Positions 6,771-11,629 of a stretch of 12,303 nucleotides of DNA are shown here, piece by piece. This DNA is from Clostridiales bacterium. GTDB taxonomy: Bacteria > Bacillota > Clostridia > Saccharofermentanales > Saccharofermentanaceae. Each line of letters starts with the position of its first letter. Position 1 is the stretch's first letter. The DNA lies in assembly GCA_017612755.1 (NCBI GenBank), contig JAGAFH010000125.1:1-12303 (forward strand), given 5' to 3'. Below the pieces are notes generated by a model that saw only the letters and a list, made by a program, of their open reading frames with translations, made no database searches and was not told the DNA's origin. A program made the position numbers and the translations under genes.

Positions 6771-7571
6771 ATGTTCTACAAAGCTATCAGCGTCAAGCAC
6801 GGAATGACCCTTAAGGATCTGGCGGCGATCTCCTACAAAAACAGGGCGAAAGTCCCCGTACAGATAACTGTGGCCGAAGATAAGATCTCCATCCTTGCAT
6901 ATGTGGATTACGACAATGTCATGAAACAGAAGTTTCATTCAAAAAGGCCCAAGGGAGAGGGCGTGACCGAGGACTTTACCTACGCTGATGCTTTCGAAAA
7001 AGGAGTCAGGAGATACTGGGAAAAGGAATATGACTTCTCCTACTGCGGCCTGGGCAAGGCCACCCTTGACGTTACCTTCATAAGGAAGGGCTCCCCTGAC
7101 TATCCCGAAGGCCAGAGGTGCTTCCGGGTCAGGAAGGCGAGGATCTCCAAGACATCTTTCGTTTCAAGTCCTCCCTTCAGGTTATTCTGGGGACTGTTTG
7201 CCTACATAAGCCCCGAGAGCGCCATGCTCAACTGGTCCCTTAAGCATCCGGGCACCGTTAATATGCAGCTTTATAAGAACGCCTCCGGCTTTAAAAGGGT
7301 CTGCGCCCATGAGTTCGGCCACATCCTGGGCATAGGCGACGCTTATGAAGCCCATTACCGCTTCTACTACATGGCTCCCGGCACGGAGGATTTCATGATG
7401 TATCACAACACCTGCGTCCAGCCCCAGGAGGTCATGATGGTCTTAAGGGCCCACCAGACCGGAAGGATGCAGTATTTCCCCATTAAATTTTCCCTCAGAA
7501 GGTACCTTAAGGGAGTTAAGAAGTCCGTCTCCCAGAGCCGGGTATTCAGCCGCCGTCAGAAGAAGGATTAA
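6771..7571 (+). CDS. putative metzincin-type zinc metalloprotease
   Basis: The 266-residue protein contains HEFGHILGIGD (180-190), matching the HExxHxxGxxH/D zinc motif with Asp as the third ligand, as in snapalysin-type metzincins. A possible Met-turn, DFMMYH (207-212), follows about 20 residues later. There is no signal peptide, membrane helix or obvious pro-domain, so it should stay in the cytoplasm, which is unusual for this class. The C-terminus is very basic (about 242-266). ATG 6771 is the first start after an in-frame stop at 6759-6761, and no ribosome binding site is present. A phage or toxin-like protease is possible. The motif is clear; the substrate is unknown. Confidence 0.75.
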   Translation: MFYKAISVKHGMTLKDLAAISYKNRAKVPVQITVAEDKISILAYVDYDNVMKQKFHSKRPKGEGVTEDFTYADAFEKGVRRYWEKEYDFSYCGLGKATLDVTFIRKGSPDYPEGQRCFRVRKARISKTSFVSSPPFRLFWGLFAYISPESAMLNWSLKHPGTVNMQLYKNASGFKRVCAHEFGHILGIGDAYEAHYRFYYMAPGTEDFMMYHNTCVQPQEVMMVLRAHQTGRMQYFPIKFSLRRYLKGVKKSVSQSRVFSRRQKKD

Positions 7572-7646: not shown

Positions 7647-7689
7647 ATCTCTATCAATTTGATATGGAATGACAGGAGGTCTCTGTTTT

Positions 7690-8532
7690 ATGAAAAAATG
7701 TCCCGATTGTGGAATGGTCATCGCCAACCAGGCTATAAGGTGCCCCAAGTGTAAGTTTAATTTCTCCGAGAATGCAGATGCAGGCGCAGCAGCTGTACCC
7801 GAAGCGGCAGCAGCAGTTTCCGCAGCAGCTACAGGCACAACATCCAAGGGCGGCGGTTCAGGTATCATGCCCATGGTAGAGGTTACAAAGGATAACGTTG
7901 ACGAGCTCTATGGTCAGCTTAAGGCTGCAGTCGTTAAGAGAAAGACAGAGTTCGATCATTTCATCGATTTCCTTGAGAACAGAACTTCCTGGCTCACAGC
8001 TCCCGCAGATCTTCACGGCACACTTGCCTGTGAGAAGGGTCTTCTTATCAGAAGCGTAGCAGTTACAAAGCAGCTTCTCAGGATCAAGGATACTCTTATG
8101 CCCCAGCTTGATGAGGAAGCAGCTATCATCATCGGTCTCTTCCACGATGTAGGTAAGGTCGGTGTTGAGGGCAAGCCTTATTTCCTTGTAGAGGAGAGAC
8201 TCGGATCTACATCTTCCGCTCTCGGACTTTCCTTCAGTTCCAGGATCTCCACCACAGGAAGTACAGCTTCTTCTTCCCAGTCCTATTCCATCAACCCTAA
8301 ACTCGTAAATATGCATATCGGCGTAAGGAGCCTTTATCTTGTATCACAGTACATGCTCCTTTCCGACGATGAGGCCCAGGCTATCAGCTATGCAGCTGAG
8401 ACAGAGCTTCTCGACGGCAACCTCAGCCCTTATACTCTCGTTCTTCAGACAGCTCTTGAGCTTCAGAAGTCCATTTACGAGAATGCTGATGCAGTAGACA
8501 GCTACAGCTTCACTGTCATCAAGCCCCAGTAA
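7690..8532 (+). CDS. zinc-ribbon and HD-like domain protein
   Basis: A 280-residue cytoplasmic protein. Residues 1-25 form a zinc ribbon (C4, C7, C18, C21). An Ala-rich, then Gly-rich linker runs to about 60. The rest resembles the HD phosphohydrolase fold: LHGTLACEKGLLIRS (108-122), LFHDVGK (150-156), H209, and DEAQAISYAAE (227-237). The usual His in the first block (GGLLEHS-like) is R121, and the final His is lost in AISYAAE, so metal-dependent catalysis is doubtful. Ser-rich residues 173-200 look like an insertion. ATG 7690 is chosen over 7669 because AGGAGGT (7674-7680) lies 9 bases before it and the Cys motif follows at once. Codon choice (GCA, ACA, GTA) differs from its neighbours. It appears monocistronic. 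Confidence 0.8.
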   Translation: MKKCPDCGMVIANQAIRCPKCKFNFSENADAGAAAVPEAAAAVSAAATGTTSKGGGSGIMPMVEVTKDNVDELYGQLKAAVVKRKTEFDHFIDFLENRTSWLTAPADLHGTLACEKGLLIRSVAVTKQLLRIKDTLMPQLDEEAAIIIGLFHDVGKVGVEGKPYFLVEERLGSTSSALGLSFSSRISTTGSTASSSQSYSINPKLVNMHIGVRSLYLVSQYMLLSDDEAQAISYAAETELLDGNLSPYTLVLQTALELQKSIYENADAVDSYSFTVIKPQ

Positions 8533-8618: not shown

Positions 8619-9977
8619 ATGAAAGAGGATCTTAAGACAAAACTTGACGGATACATAAAGTCTGATGTGCTGCCCATGCATATGCCGGGCCATAAGAGAA
8701 ACCCCGGATTTACCGGTTCCAAAGGTGACATCACCGAGATCGAAGGATTTGATAATCTTCACAGCCCTAAAGGCGTGATCAGGGATCTGGAGAAGAAGGC
8801 CGCTGATATCTACGGTGCAGATGACGCCTTCATCTCCGTAAACGGGGCTACCGCCCTTATATTCGCGGCCATCCATGCAAGTACTTTCCGGGGTGAGAAG
8901 ATCTTAGTCTCTTCCGGCTGCCATATAAGCGTCTGGCACGCAATCGAGACCGCAGGCCTTGTGCCGGTACTTACCGATCCCATATCAGATGTAACTACAG
9001 GCGCCTTCGAAGGCCTGGATCACCGCGCTTTTATAAAGGCTATAGAAGAAAACGGCATCAACACTGCAGTCATCACCACCCCCACCTACGAGGGCCTCAT
9101 CACTGATACTAAAGATCTTTACAAAAGATGCAGGCAGCTGGGATGCACCCTTATCGTAGACGAGTCCCACGGGGCCCACTTCGGAGTAAAGGGAAATTCA
9201 AAGTTCCCGGAGACATCTGAAGGGGATATAGTCATCAAGAGCCTTCATAAGACTATGGCCTCCCCTACCCAGACCGCAGTCATGCTCACAAAGAAAGATC
9301 TGCCTTTCAAATATCTTATTAGGCACTATCTGGCTGTAAATGAATCCACGAGTCCTTCATATATCCTGATGAGCGGTATCGCTTCTGCCCTCACCCACAC
9401 TGATACAGATGCTTTTTTCGATATAGTTAAAGAAGGCAGAAAGGCTCTCACGGGTCTTAACAAACTGAGGCTCTACGAAAGAGCCGATATGGATCCTTCC
9501 AAGTTCGTGATCCTGACAGAAGGGTATCTGACAGGCTATGAGCTGGCGGACAGATTAAGGAAGGAATACAGGATCGAAGTGGAAGCCTCCTTCCCTTCCT
9601 ACATTATCGCCATGACAGGTATGGGAGATACTCCTGAAACCATAAAGCGCTTTACGGACAGCCTTCTTGCTGTTGACGGAAAGCTGGGAGACAGGAACGG
9701 TACAACAGCGGATACCTTCTACCCTGAAGCGGCCGGCAGGAAGTTTATGCTCAGCATCGAGAATGCAGTAAAGTCTGAAAAAGCCGTAACAGAAATAAAG
9801 AAGGCGGAAGGTAAGATGAGCGGGGAATATCTTTTCGCTTATCCGCCGGGAGTTCCCATCCTTATTCCCGGGGAAGTAATAACCGGAGCTTCCATAAAGG
9901 CGATAGAGGGCGCTTCATATCTTAAGACAGATCCCTTCAGGGATTTCGACGGCACCCTTTTAACAGTTGACATTTAA
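8619..9977 (+). CDS. Orn/Lys/Arg decarboxylase family PLP enzyme
   Basis: A 452-residue fold-type I PLP enzyme that should decarboxylate a basic amino acid to a polyamine precursor such as cadaverine, agmatine or putrescine. It starts with the family PMHMPGHKR block (19-27). It then has SVNGATALIFAAI (73-85), the cofactor Asp in DESHGAHFG (181-189), and the PLP lysine K211 in SLHKTMASPTQTA. The C-terminal YPPGVPILIPGE shapes the active site. The length fits the short YaaO/SpeA-like clade, not the 700-residue inducible enzymes. The substrate cannot be read from sequence. No ribosome binding site is visible and a poor promoter lies just upstream. The last codons contain the -35 of the SCIFF promoter. 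Confidence 0.92.
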   Translation: MKEDLKTKLDGYIKSDVLPMHMPGHKRNPGFTGSKGDITEIEGFDNLHSPKGVIRDLEKKAADIYGADDAFISVNGATALIFAAIHASTFRGEKILVSSGCHISVWHAIETAGLVPVLTDPISDVTTGAFEGLDHRAFIKAIEENGINTAVITTPTYEGLITDTKDLYKRCRQLGCTLIVDESHGAHFGVKGNSKFPETSEGDIVIKSLHKTMASPTQTAVMLTKKDLPFKYLIRHYLAVNESTSPSYILMSGIASALTHTDTDAFFDIVKEGRKALTGLNKLRLYERADMDPSKFVILTEGYLTGYELADRLRKEYRIEVEASFPSYIIAMTGMGDTPETIKRFTDSLLAVDGKLGDRNGTTADTFYPEAAGRKFMLSIENAVKSEKAVTEIKKAEGKMSGEYLFAYPPGVPILIPGEVITGASIKAIEGASYLKTDPFRDFDGTLLTVDI

Positions 9978-9996
9978 AGCAAAGTCAAAGTATAAT
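9967..9996 (+). promoter_or_regulatory. consensus promoter of the SCIFF peptide gene
   Basis: TTGACA (9967-9972) and TATAAT (9991-9996) both match consensus exactly with an 18-base spacer. They predict a start near 10003 and a leader of about 25 nt. The -35 lies inside the last codons of the decarboxylase gene. Confidence 0.88.
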
Positions 9997-10027: not shown

Positions 10028-10177
10028 ATGACAAGAATCGTTACTGTCAATACACGCGACCTGAACAAGTCTGCTAAGGAAGGCGGCTGCGGCGAGTGCC
10101 AGACATCCTGCCAGTCTGCTTGCAAGACTTCCTGTGGTGTTGCCAACCAGGCTTGCGAGAAGGTTGAAAAGAAGTAA
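10028..10177 (+). CDS. SCIFF family ranthipeptide precursor
   Basis: A 49-residue precursor of the SCIFF (six cysteines in forty-five) family, a ribosomally made peptide that its radical SAM partner modifies by Cys-to-side-chain thioether bonds. The leader is residues 1-20 (with VNTRDLNKSAKE). The core holds six Cys at 21, 24, 28, 32, 36 and 43, in the conserved CGECQTSCQSACKTSC order. AAGGGGG (10013-10019) lies 8 bases before the ATG. The residue after the fifth Cys is Gly37, where many SCIFF peptides have Thr. A 14-bp hairpin separates it from the maturase gene, which starts 81 bases later. The biological role of SCIFF products is still poorly known. Confidence 0.95.
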   Translation: MTRIVTVNTRDLNKSAKEGGCGECQTSCQSACKTSCGVANQACEKVEKK

Positions 10178-10201: not shown

Positions 10202-10236
10202 AAGGTCTCAGGAATCTTTATTTTTGAGACCTTTTT
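10202..10236 (+). terminator. terminator or attenuator between peptide and maturase
   Basis: AAGGTCTCAGGAAT (10202-10215) pairs with ATTTTTGAGACCTT (10220-10233), including two G-T pairs, around a 4-base loop. The T tract at 10232-10236 follows. The maturase ribosome binding site (AAGGAG, 10246-10251) lies just after it. Partial termination would keep peptide mRNA in excess. Confidence 0.82.
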
Positions 10237-10258: not shown

Positions 10259-11629
10259 TTGATCCACTGTTTTAAGTTCGACGACAAGAATATCGTACTC
10301 GACGTTTACTCCGGCGCCATCCACCTGGTGGATGACGTTGCTTTTGACATCATAGGAATGTATGAGGATACACCGAAGGATGAGATAAAGAAGACGATCC
10401 TTGAGAAATACGGTGACAGAGAAGACGTAAACGAAGATGAGATCGAAGAATGCTTTGGAGATATCGAAGACCTTAAGCAGCAGGGCAAGCTCTTTGCTCC
10501 CGACAAATATGAGAAGATCGCCATAGATCTTACAAAGAAGAAATATACCCTGAAGGCCCTCTGCCTTCATGTGGCCCACACCTGTAATCTGAACTGCTCC
10601 TACTGCTTTGCCGCCCAGGGAAACTTCCACGGCGAGAGGGGCCTTATGAGCTTTGAAGTCGGAAAGAGGGCTATCGACTTCCTTATAGAGAATTCCGGCT
10701 ACCACAAAAATCTTGATATAGATTTCTTTGGCGGTGAGCCTTTGATGAACTGGGAAGTCGTAAAGCAGCTCGTTAAATACGGCCGTTCCGTAGAGAAGGA
10801 AAACGGCAAGAATATAAGGTTCACCCTTACCACCAACGGAGTGGGCATAACAGACGAGGTCATCGACTTCTGTAACGAAGAGATGTATAACGTGGTCCTC
10901 TCTTTAGACGGCCGCAAGGAGACTAATGACAGATTCAGAGTGGATCTGAAGGGCAACGGTTCATACGATACCATCGTTCCCAAGTTCCAGAAGTTTGTCA
11001 GCAGAAGAGGCACGAAGAGCTACTACATGAGAGGCACCTTCACCCACTTCAATACCGATTTCGTGGAGGATATCCTCCATATGGCAGATCTGGGATTTAA
11101 GGAACTTTCCATGGAGCCGGTAGTAGCTTCCCCCGACTCCCCTTCCGCCCTCACCAAGGAAGATCTGCCCGTAATACTTGCAGGCTACGAAAGACTTGCA
11201 AGGGAGATGATGAAGAGAAATAAAGAAGGAAACGGCTTTACCTTCTACCACTATATGCTGGATCTGGAGTGCGGTCCCTGCATCTATAAAAGGATCTCCG
11301 GCTGCGGCGCCGGTACAGAATACCTGGCTGTAACCCCTTGGGGCGACCTCTACCCTTGCCACCAGTTCGTGGGAGATCCGAAGTTTAAGATGGGGGACAT
11401 CTATAAGGGAATAGAAAATACAGACCTTAGAAACGAATTCGCCCAGGTAAACTGCTACTCAAGAGAAGGCTGTAAGGACTGCTGGGCAAAATTATTCTGC
11501 TCCGGCGGATGCGCCGCCAACTCCTACCACGCCCAGGGTTCTATATCCGGCATCTATGAGTACGGCTGCGAGCTCTTCCGTAAGAGGATCGAGTGCGCCC
11601 TGGCCGTCAAGCTGGATAATCTAGATTAA
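10259..11629 (+). CDS. SCIFF peptide maturase, radical SAM/SPASM thioether-forming
   Basis: The 456-residue cytoplasmic enzyme uses SAM and a [4Fe-4S] cluster to form thioether links in the SCIFF peptide. The N-terminal region (about 1-85) is the peptide-recognition (RRE-type) domain, beginning IHCFKFDDKNIVLDVYSGAI. The radical SAM cysteines are C109, C113 and C116 (CNLNCSYC). FGGEP (157-161) helps bind SAM. The C-terminal SPASM domain has C338, C341, C349, C367, C399, C405, C408, C414, C418 and C437, enough for two auxiliary Fe-S clusters. The start is TTG, fixed by AAGGAG (10246-10251) 7 bases upstream and by the family N-terminus. It pairs with the precursor just upstream. Confidence 0.95.
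   Translation: MIHCFKFDDKNIVLDVYSGAIHLVDDVAFDIIGMYEDTPKDEIKKTILEKYGDREDVNEDEIEECFGDIEDLKQQGKLFAPDKYEKIAIDLTKKKYTLKALCLHVAHTCNLNCSYCFAAQGNFHGERGLMSFEVGKRAIDFLIENSGYHKNLDIDFFGGEPLMNWEVVKQLVKYGRSVEKENGKNIRFTLTTNGVGITDEVIDFCNEEMYNVVLSLDGRKETNDRFRVDLKGNGSYDTIVPKFQKFVSRRGTKSYYMRGTFTHFNTDFVEDILHMADLGFKELSMEPVVASPDSPSALTKEDLPVILAGYERLAREMMKRNKEGNGFTFYHYMLDLECGPCIYKRISGCGAGTEYLAVTPWGDLYPCHQFVGDPKFKMGDIYKGIENTDLRNEFAQVNCYSREGCKDCWAKLFCSGGCAANSYHAQGSISGIYEYGCELFRKRIECALAVKLDNLD

Follow-up and report, generated by a model that had tools for sequence, protein, structure and literature searches.

The SCIFF locus

The stretch of DNA analysed here, 12,303 nucleotides in its full length (the window), carries a gene for a SCIFF precursor and, 81 bases 3' of it, a gene matching the SCIFF maturase family TIGR03974 (Table 1). 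The precursor open reading frame (10028-10177) encodes MTRIVTVNTRDLNKSAKEGGCGECQTSCQSACKTSCGVANQACEKVEKK, which has the six cysteines in about 45 residues that mark its family, at positions 21, 24, 28, 32, 36 and 43. In profile searches the peptide scored 82 bits against TIGR03973 (cut-off 50) and 81.7 bits against PF13165 (cut-off 27), and it was the single SCIFF match in its genome, which is 70% complete. No relative of the precursor was found among PDB sequences, the sole match up to E 10 being an epoxyqueuosine reductase (E 0.18).

All six cysteines are kept and the residue after the fifth is Gly37, encoded by GGT, as the initial annotation had stated. The Thr at position 37 that a thermocellin-type Cys32-Thr37 thioether needs is therefore replaced; Cys32 and Thr34, which a thermocellin-type Cys32-Thr34 thioether needs, are both present. 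Judged from its sequence, the window precursor is not a Cys32-Thr37 peptide.

Table 1. Coordinates of the SCIFF genes, of sites within and around them, and of neighbouring genes in the window.
Feature	Coordinates	Strand	Basis
ORF of 266 aa containing HEFGHILGIGD	6771..7571	+	weak Pfam matches below cut-off (peptidases M6, M10, M7)
ORF of 287 aa; N-terminal zinc-ribbon-like stretch and HD-domain-like stretch	7669..8532	+	PF01966, 19.5 bits, below the cut-off of 22
Orn/Lys/Arg decarboxylase family protein, directly upstream of the precursor	8619..9977	+	PF01276
TTGACA-18-TATAAT promoter-like site 5' of the precursor	9967..9996	+	12/12 consensus matches; consensus match only
SCIFF precursor, 49 aa, six Cys, Gly37	10028..10177	+	TIGR03973 and PF13165 matches
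Cys32 codon; donor Cys of characterised systems	10121..10123	+	sequence; reviews, in the parts available
Thr34 codon, kept; CteA acceptor reported in E. coli	10127..10129	+	sequence; reviews, in the parts available
Gly37 codon GGT; Thr in 281/289 phylum-draw precursors	10136..10138	+	sequence
Terminator-like hairpin AAGGTCTCA...TGAGACCTT then T residues, in the precursor/maturase gap	10202..10233	+	fold z -2.23; comparable in 58/60
SCIFF maturase (radical SAM/SPASM), 456 aa, TTG start	10259..11629	+	TIGR03974; CteB match
Maturase residues 108-120, loop with radical SAM Cys 109/113/116; Thr108, Asn112, Ser114 and Gln120 typical of Gly37 systems	10580..10618	+	class alignments
Maturase Tyr332	11252..11254	+	Tyr in 137/137 C32/G37 and S32; Phe in 251/263 C32/T37

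The maturase scored 737.8 bits against TIGR03974 (cut-off 425), and its nearest solved relative is CteB (5WGG/5WHY, E 1.7e-169). Its radical SAM CxxxCxxC motif consists of C109, C113 and C116, and its SPASM cysteines are C341, C349, C367, C405, C408, C414, C418 and C437, matched to those of CteB where the latter are printed.

Among the flanking genes, the stretch HEFGHILGIGD of the 266-residue product matches the zinc-protease motif HExxHxxGxxD. The hairpin of the window, which has a T-rich tail and is missing from the list of a stock terminator scan, would hold maturase expression below that of the precursor. Of 60 sequences examined, with the window and L001 included in the number, 58 have a comparable hairpin. 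The letters of the stem, GGTCTC...GAGACC, are often the same among them and the loops differ; stem letters so well kept may point to more than a plain terminator.

Distribution of Gly37

Genomes were sampled evenly across the phylum, and 318 of 398 gave a SCIFF match. After 28 of these were left out, 290 loci from 290 different genomes were fetched, yielding 289 readable precursors. Residue 37 was Thr in 281 of them, which bears out the remark of the initial annotation that many family members read SCT, Gly in seven and Ser in one. Gly37 was confined to five of the 105 family codes (f11, f13, f36, f37 and f43), f37 also holding one Thr37. For the window's genus, 34 genomes were searched, three of which (G013, G015 and G020) gave no SCIFF match; Gly37 was present in all 30 readable loci, the window's own counted, and positions 33-41 read KTSCG(V/I)ANQ throughout. 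A partial copy in G009 also has Gly37, and the copy in G032 is broken. Other families of the same order had Thr37 in 16 and Gly37 in one of 17 readable loci.

When 80 named records were picked for the nearness of their maturases to that of the window, 68 showed Gly37 and eight Thr37; L085 is broken and three could not be read by the script, two of these being partial or masked yet showing Gly. Gly37 was likewise present in 114 of 120 homologues, a proportion that, these being the nearest 120 of 5159, cannot serve as a frequency. Since all 30 genus loci have the Gly and separate records show it too, among them other MAG records (L061, for instance, with a maturase of 94% identity), a sequencing or assembly error at Gly37 was ruled out, as was a recent loss of Thr37 in a single strain. 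On these counts Gly37, rare though it is in the phylum, is standard in the window's lineage, and is an old, kept variant and no one-off. The sole result against calling it fixed in the lineage comes from three metagenome contigs of 540, 595 and 582 bases (P0023, P0038 and P0086), which combine Saccharofermentans-like leaders with a Thr37/Gly39 core and may be chimaeric.

Other variant precursors were also observed. Cys36 is replaced by Leu or Ile in 20 of the 289 phylum-draw precursors, which keep Cys32, Thr34 and Thr37 and are thus five-cysteine members; they include L145, L147 and L160 (family f35) and L169, L187, L205, L213 and L215 (family f28). In L085 and L418 a Saccharofermentans-like precursor ends after SACK, and the maturase adjoining that of L418 is full length, with 71% identity. 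P0025 and P0029 (also P0001, P0039 and P0262) carry a part of the SCIFF leader and core in tandem repeat, and may be either assembly artefacts or real multi-core precursors.

Residues 32, 34 and 37 across the family

Precursors are classed here by residues 32 and 37. In 415 distinct core DNA sequences (16 of 487 loci fell outside the search pattern: eight are C32/T37 precursors that differ at other positions, and the remaining ones are incomplete, are broken or do not belong to SCIFF), the pair was C32/T37 in 294, C32/G37 in 106, S32/S37 in 14 and S32/A37 in one. No other pair occurred among these 415 cores, S32/G37 included. It is residue 37, not residue 34, that changes along with residue 32. 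Cores that retain Cys32 but lack Thr37 have Gly there, from all four codons (GGT 53, GGC 43, GGA 8 and GGG 2 in the 106 C32/G37 cores); those without Cys32 have Ser, from both codon families, or Ala. This pairing corresponds to one switch on well-supported branches and three on all branches, and as a sign test for the coupling needs six pairs, no statistical claim is made.

Three homologue lists (the nearest 120 of 5159, of 931 and of 5915) were pooled into 337 proteins, which comprised 219 C32/G37, 81 S32/S37, 28 C32/T37 and four S32/A37, with three unparsed and two odd pairs found once each, R32/G37 (P0005) and R32/S37 (P0169). Thr34 was invariant in the phylum draw (289/289) and the genus loci (30/30). 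It was kept in 48 of 49 distinct C32/G37 cores of 26 residues, the exception being Pro34 in P0251, and in all distinct cores without Cys32 (20/20 S32/S37 and 2/2 S32/A37). Positions 28-31 and 33-35 were as invariant as Thr34 in the phylum draw, and the nearly universal cysteines are Cys21, Cys24, Cys28 and Cys43.

The S32 precursors, with Ser or Ala as residue 37, are those of L456, L458-L465, L468, L469, L476, L478 and L483 and part of P0121-P0235. All three Ser32 peptides tested (the typed L456 peptide, P0209 and P0123) are named 'six-cysteine ranthipeptide SCIFF' by NCBIfam, with scores over its cut-off, so that the annotation does not separate the classes. An added cysteine right after Cys43-Glu44 was seen in 30 of 81 S32/S37, 11 of 216 C32/G37 and none of 15 C32/T37 proteins.

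Phylogeny of the maturases

The first maturase tree contained 201 rows thinned by likeness, namely the window, 48 of 107 Gly37 rows, 151 of 238 Thr37 rows and one Ser37 row. In it, one branch (SH-aLRT 100) set the Gly37 rows apart from all others. The Ser37 precursor, used as a query, retrieved a large neighbouring group with Ser in place of Cys32. A later tree was built from 98 rows, including the maturases of 14 S32 loci, after seven rows had been removed, up to six thinned, and L457 and L462 dropped. It placed every non-Thr37 precursor (63 C32/G37, 13 S32/S37 and one S32/A37) on one branch (100/99). Within it, 62 of the 63 Gly37 rows formed one clade (91/94), and L487 stood outside this clade, close to the base. 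The S32 rows formed a grade. Monophyly was not rejected for all S32 rows (p-AU 0.211) or for all Gly37 rows (p-AU 0.202); a regain of Cys32 is therefore not claimed, though the drawn tree suggests it.

Repeated independent changes from Thr37 to Gly were considered and found no support in the first tree, where one change suffices, and a single Gly37 group stood in the test just given. The position of L141 (S32/S37) beside Thr37 Lachnospiraceae in that first, quick tree was superseded when more rows brought it to the Gly37 side (100/99). The window precursor is thus very probably a genuine SCIFF peptide of a kept C32/G37 class with its own maturase lineage, in which Thr37 has been replaced by Gly.

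Class-specific features of the maturase

All three classes retain the radical SAM and SPASM cysteines, in every column of the 63 Gly37, 14 S32 and 21 Thr37 rows. The same held for a larger set of 122 Gly37, 15 S32 and 263 Thr37 maturases, apart from a Ser349 in one Gly37 enzyme and from some truncated rows. Beside the radical SAM cysteines, residue 108 is Thr or Ser in 120 of the 122 Gly37 maturases and Asp in 220 of the 263 Thr37 and 13 of the 15 S32 enzymes; Asn112 and Gln120 occur in 102 and 119 of the Gly37 maturases, respectively. Of the 15 columns most specific to Gly37 enzymes, nine are no more than six residues away from a cluster cysteine; among variable columns the proportion is 16%, and none of 5000 random draws gave so high a share. 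This signature was sought after the classes were known and counts distance along the chain, not in space. In a control with 45 clades, the highest value, 0.60, was reached by the whole Gly37 clade and by one clade inside it, while the 27 clades without Gly37 rows stayed at or below 0.47 and nine pure Gly37 clades ranged from 0.07 to 0.60.

At the S32 loci, the maturase gene lies 51-231 bases 3' of the precursor in all 15 cases examined. As Cys32 is lost there while the maturase and its Fe-S cysteines are kept, the enzyme, if active at these loci, would have a task independent of Cys32.

Candidate partners of Cys32

According to the available parts of the reviews, Tte1186a and CteA carried a Cys32-Thr37 link in vitro, the sole link found, whereas CteA co-expressed with CteB in E. 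coli carried a Cys32-Thr34 link, from sulfur to the gamma carbon, as determined by labelling. The reviews, as far as available, leave this discrepancy standing and raise the question of other cysteines taking part. The initial annotation had given Cys32-Thr37 as the CteA link, which agrees with the in vitro work and is unsettled by the E. coli product. Its placing of Cys32 at the same number as in CteA is upheld by the accessible text of the SkfB paper, in which residues 1-21 of CteA finish with a Cys that is third in the core, and the reactive Cys stands at core position 14; this register gives CteA Cys21 and Cys32, numbered as in the window precursor. It was also right that Thr37 is absent and that Gly37 has no means of forming a gamma-carbon link, which excludes residue 37 of the window peptide as a gamma acceptor. 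The alternatives it listed (Thr34, Ser35, Asn40, an alpha-carbon link or another ring pattern) are sensible ones.

The reading that we tentatively place first, while holding it short of probable, is a gamma-carbon link from Cys32 to Thr34 in the window peptide. The maturase would still link Cys32 in the C32/G37 class, the acceptor would be Thr34 through its gamma carbon, giving the short ring of CteA from E. coli, and Thr37 would then never have been indispensable, with Gly37 acting on the backbone only. Thr34 is rated highest because, in the reviews as available, it is a reported acceptor in this enzyme family, because it is present and because it needs no new chemistry. It also fits this reading that the Gly37-class core of the 30 genus loci has gained no Thr, Asp or Asn, and that the class retains Cys32, as a donor should be retained. 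In the 106 distinct cores this is so by definition, but S32/G37 is absent from the 415 cores and R32/G37 was met once in the 337 proteins. Its footing, at the level of sequence, is the family assignment, Gly37, the kept Cys32 and Thr34 and the kept Fe-S ligands; we infer that the maturase would act on the window peptide, join these atoms and make one link. Other observations weigh against Thr34. It is invariant in the relatives that lack Cys32, which means that a role as Cys32 acceptor does not account for its conservation, and the residues around it are no less invariant in the phylum draw. The residue that changes along with Cys32 is 37, not 34. A strict Gly37 from all four codons would seem unneeded for a merely vacated position. 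P0251, a C32/G37 peptide, has Pro34, and the acceptor reported in vitro, in the reviews as available, is Thr37. The initial annotation had held that its point would fall if Gly were common here and the characterised acceptor were another residue conserved in this peptide. The second part is borne out in so far as Thr34, reported in those reviews, is kept; the first is not, Gly37 being rare in the phylum (7/289), though general in the genus (30/30).

A link between Cys32 and the Gly37 alpha carbon, the one carbon available in Gly, would turn a gamma-carbon SCIFF enzyme into an alpha-carbon (sactipeptide-type) one; it is ranked second and regarded as rather unlikely. It is placed there because it would explain the kept Gly, the pairing of residues 32 and 37, and the difference of the enzyme at its cluster. 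The two residues change together in the 415 cores, Thr37, where it is lost beside Cys32, always giving way to Gly. Next to the radical SAM cluster (residues 108, 112 and 120) the Gly37 maturases stand apart from those of the other two classes, with the nine of 15 specific columns near the cluster cysteines. A precedent for Gly exists in streptosactin, where, according to the accessible part of a review, the Gly34 alpha carbon is joined to Cys31 by a radical SAM/SPASM enzyme. Against this, the coupling comes down to the one supported switch (three on all branches), too few for a test; the QhpD-like branch to which the maturase belongs is known, in the available parts of the reviews, for beta and gamma links; and the enzyme signature is post hoc, with control clades reaching 0.47 against 0.60. 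Should this link exist, the Gly37 class would represent a natural switch of linkage within one gene family, from gamma ranthipeptide to alpha sactipeptide, beside a neighbouring group that dropped the Cys32 ring and still uses the enzyme, a scenario we regard as doubtful. Residues 32 and 37 would then be the true natural pair and the Thr34 product of CteA in E. coli off-register.

Somewhat less likely again is that Cys32 is unlinked in the Gly37 class, the ring having been given up with Thr37, so that Cys32 would serve a disulfide, a metal or recognition and another cysteine would be linked. The S32 group, which retains the adjacent maturase (15/15) and the Fe-S cysteines without having Cys32, argues for it, and so do the nearly universal Cys21, Cys24, Cys28 and Cys43 and the Leu or Ile in place of Cys36 in 20/289. 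These S32 relatives, keeping the enzyme without the donor, also make the earlier statement that the maturase must use another acceptor too strong. Cys32 is, however, as strict in the Gly37 as in the Thr37 class, unlike a residue under relaxed selection, and in vitro the Cys32 link was the only one in Tte1186a and CteA, as the available review text has it. A link from Cys32 to Ser35, Val38, Ala39 or Asn40, or a wholly different ring pattern, is improbable, for although Asn40 (287/289) and Ser35 (289/289) are conserved in the phylum draw and Asn is the acceptor in NxxcA (a review, seen in part), both residues are equally invariant with Thr37 present and with Cys32 absent and are not singled out in the Gly37 class.

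SCIFF is present in most genomes of the phylum draw (318/398), yet the reviews, in the parts available, differ on the Thr partner of Cys32. The natural variants bear directly on this point, as C32/G37 peptides cannot use Thr37, S32 peptides cannot use Cys32, and each comes with its own maturase. They make the disputed acceptor testable, with Thr34, residue 37 or another cysteine as the core of SCIFF chemistry. Neither Gly37 nor Cys32-less SCIFF peptides are mentioned in the literature examined, of which parts were available and which excluded most subscription journals.

Comparison with known systems

The window genes belong to the same precursor and maturase families as CteA/CteB of Clostridium thermocellum (thermocellin; 5WGG, 5WHY). 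Cys21 and Cys32 are in register with CteA and Thr34 is common to both, whereas CteA has Thr37, according to the reviews as available, and the window peptide Gly37. The window maturase aligns with CteB over residues 1-453; where the window enzyme has Thr108, Asn112, Ser114 and Gln120, the residues of CteB are Asp, Arg, Lys and Thr, and Phe takes the place of Tyr332. Tte1186a/Tte1186 of Caldanaerobacter subterraneus is also a SCIFF system with Cys32 as the reported donor, but its acceptor, reported as Thr37 in the review text at hand, is absent here. The S32/S37 and S32/A37 precursors, from entries named Mogibacterium, Anaerovorax and Family XIII, share the tree branch of the window (100/99) and the loss of Thr37, and differ in that Cys32 is missing as well. 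Streptosactin (GggA/GggB), as described in the part of the review available, shows the chemistry that an alpha-carbon link to Gly37 would need; its precursor and sactisynthase belong to other families, and the likeness is one of chemistry only.
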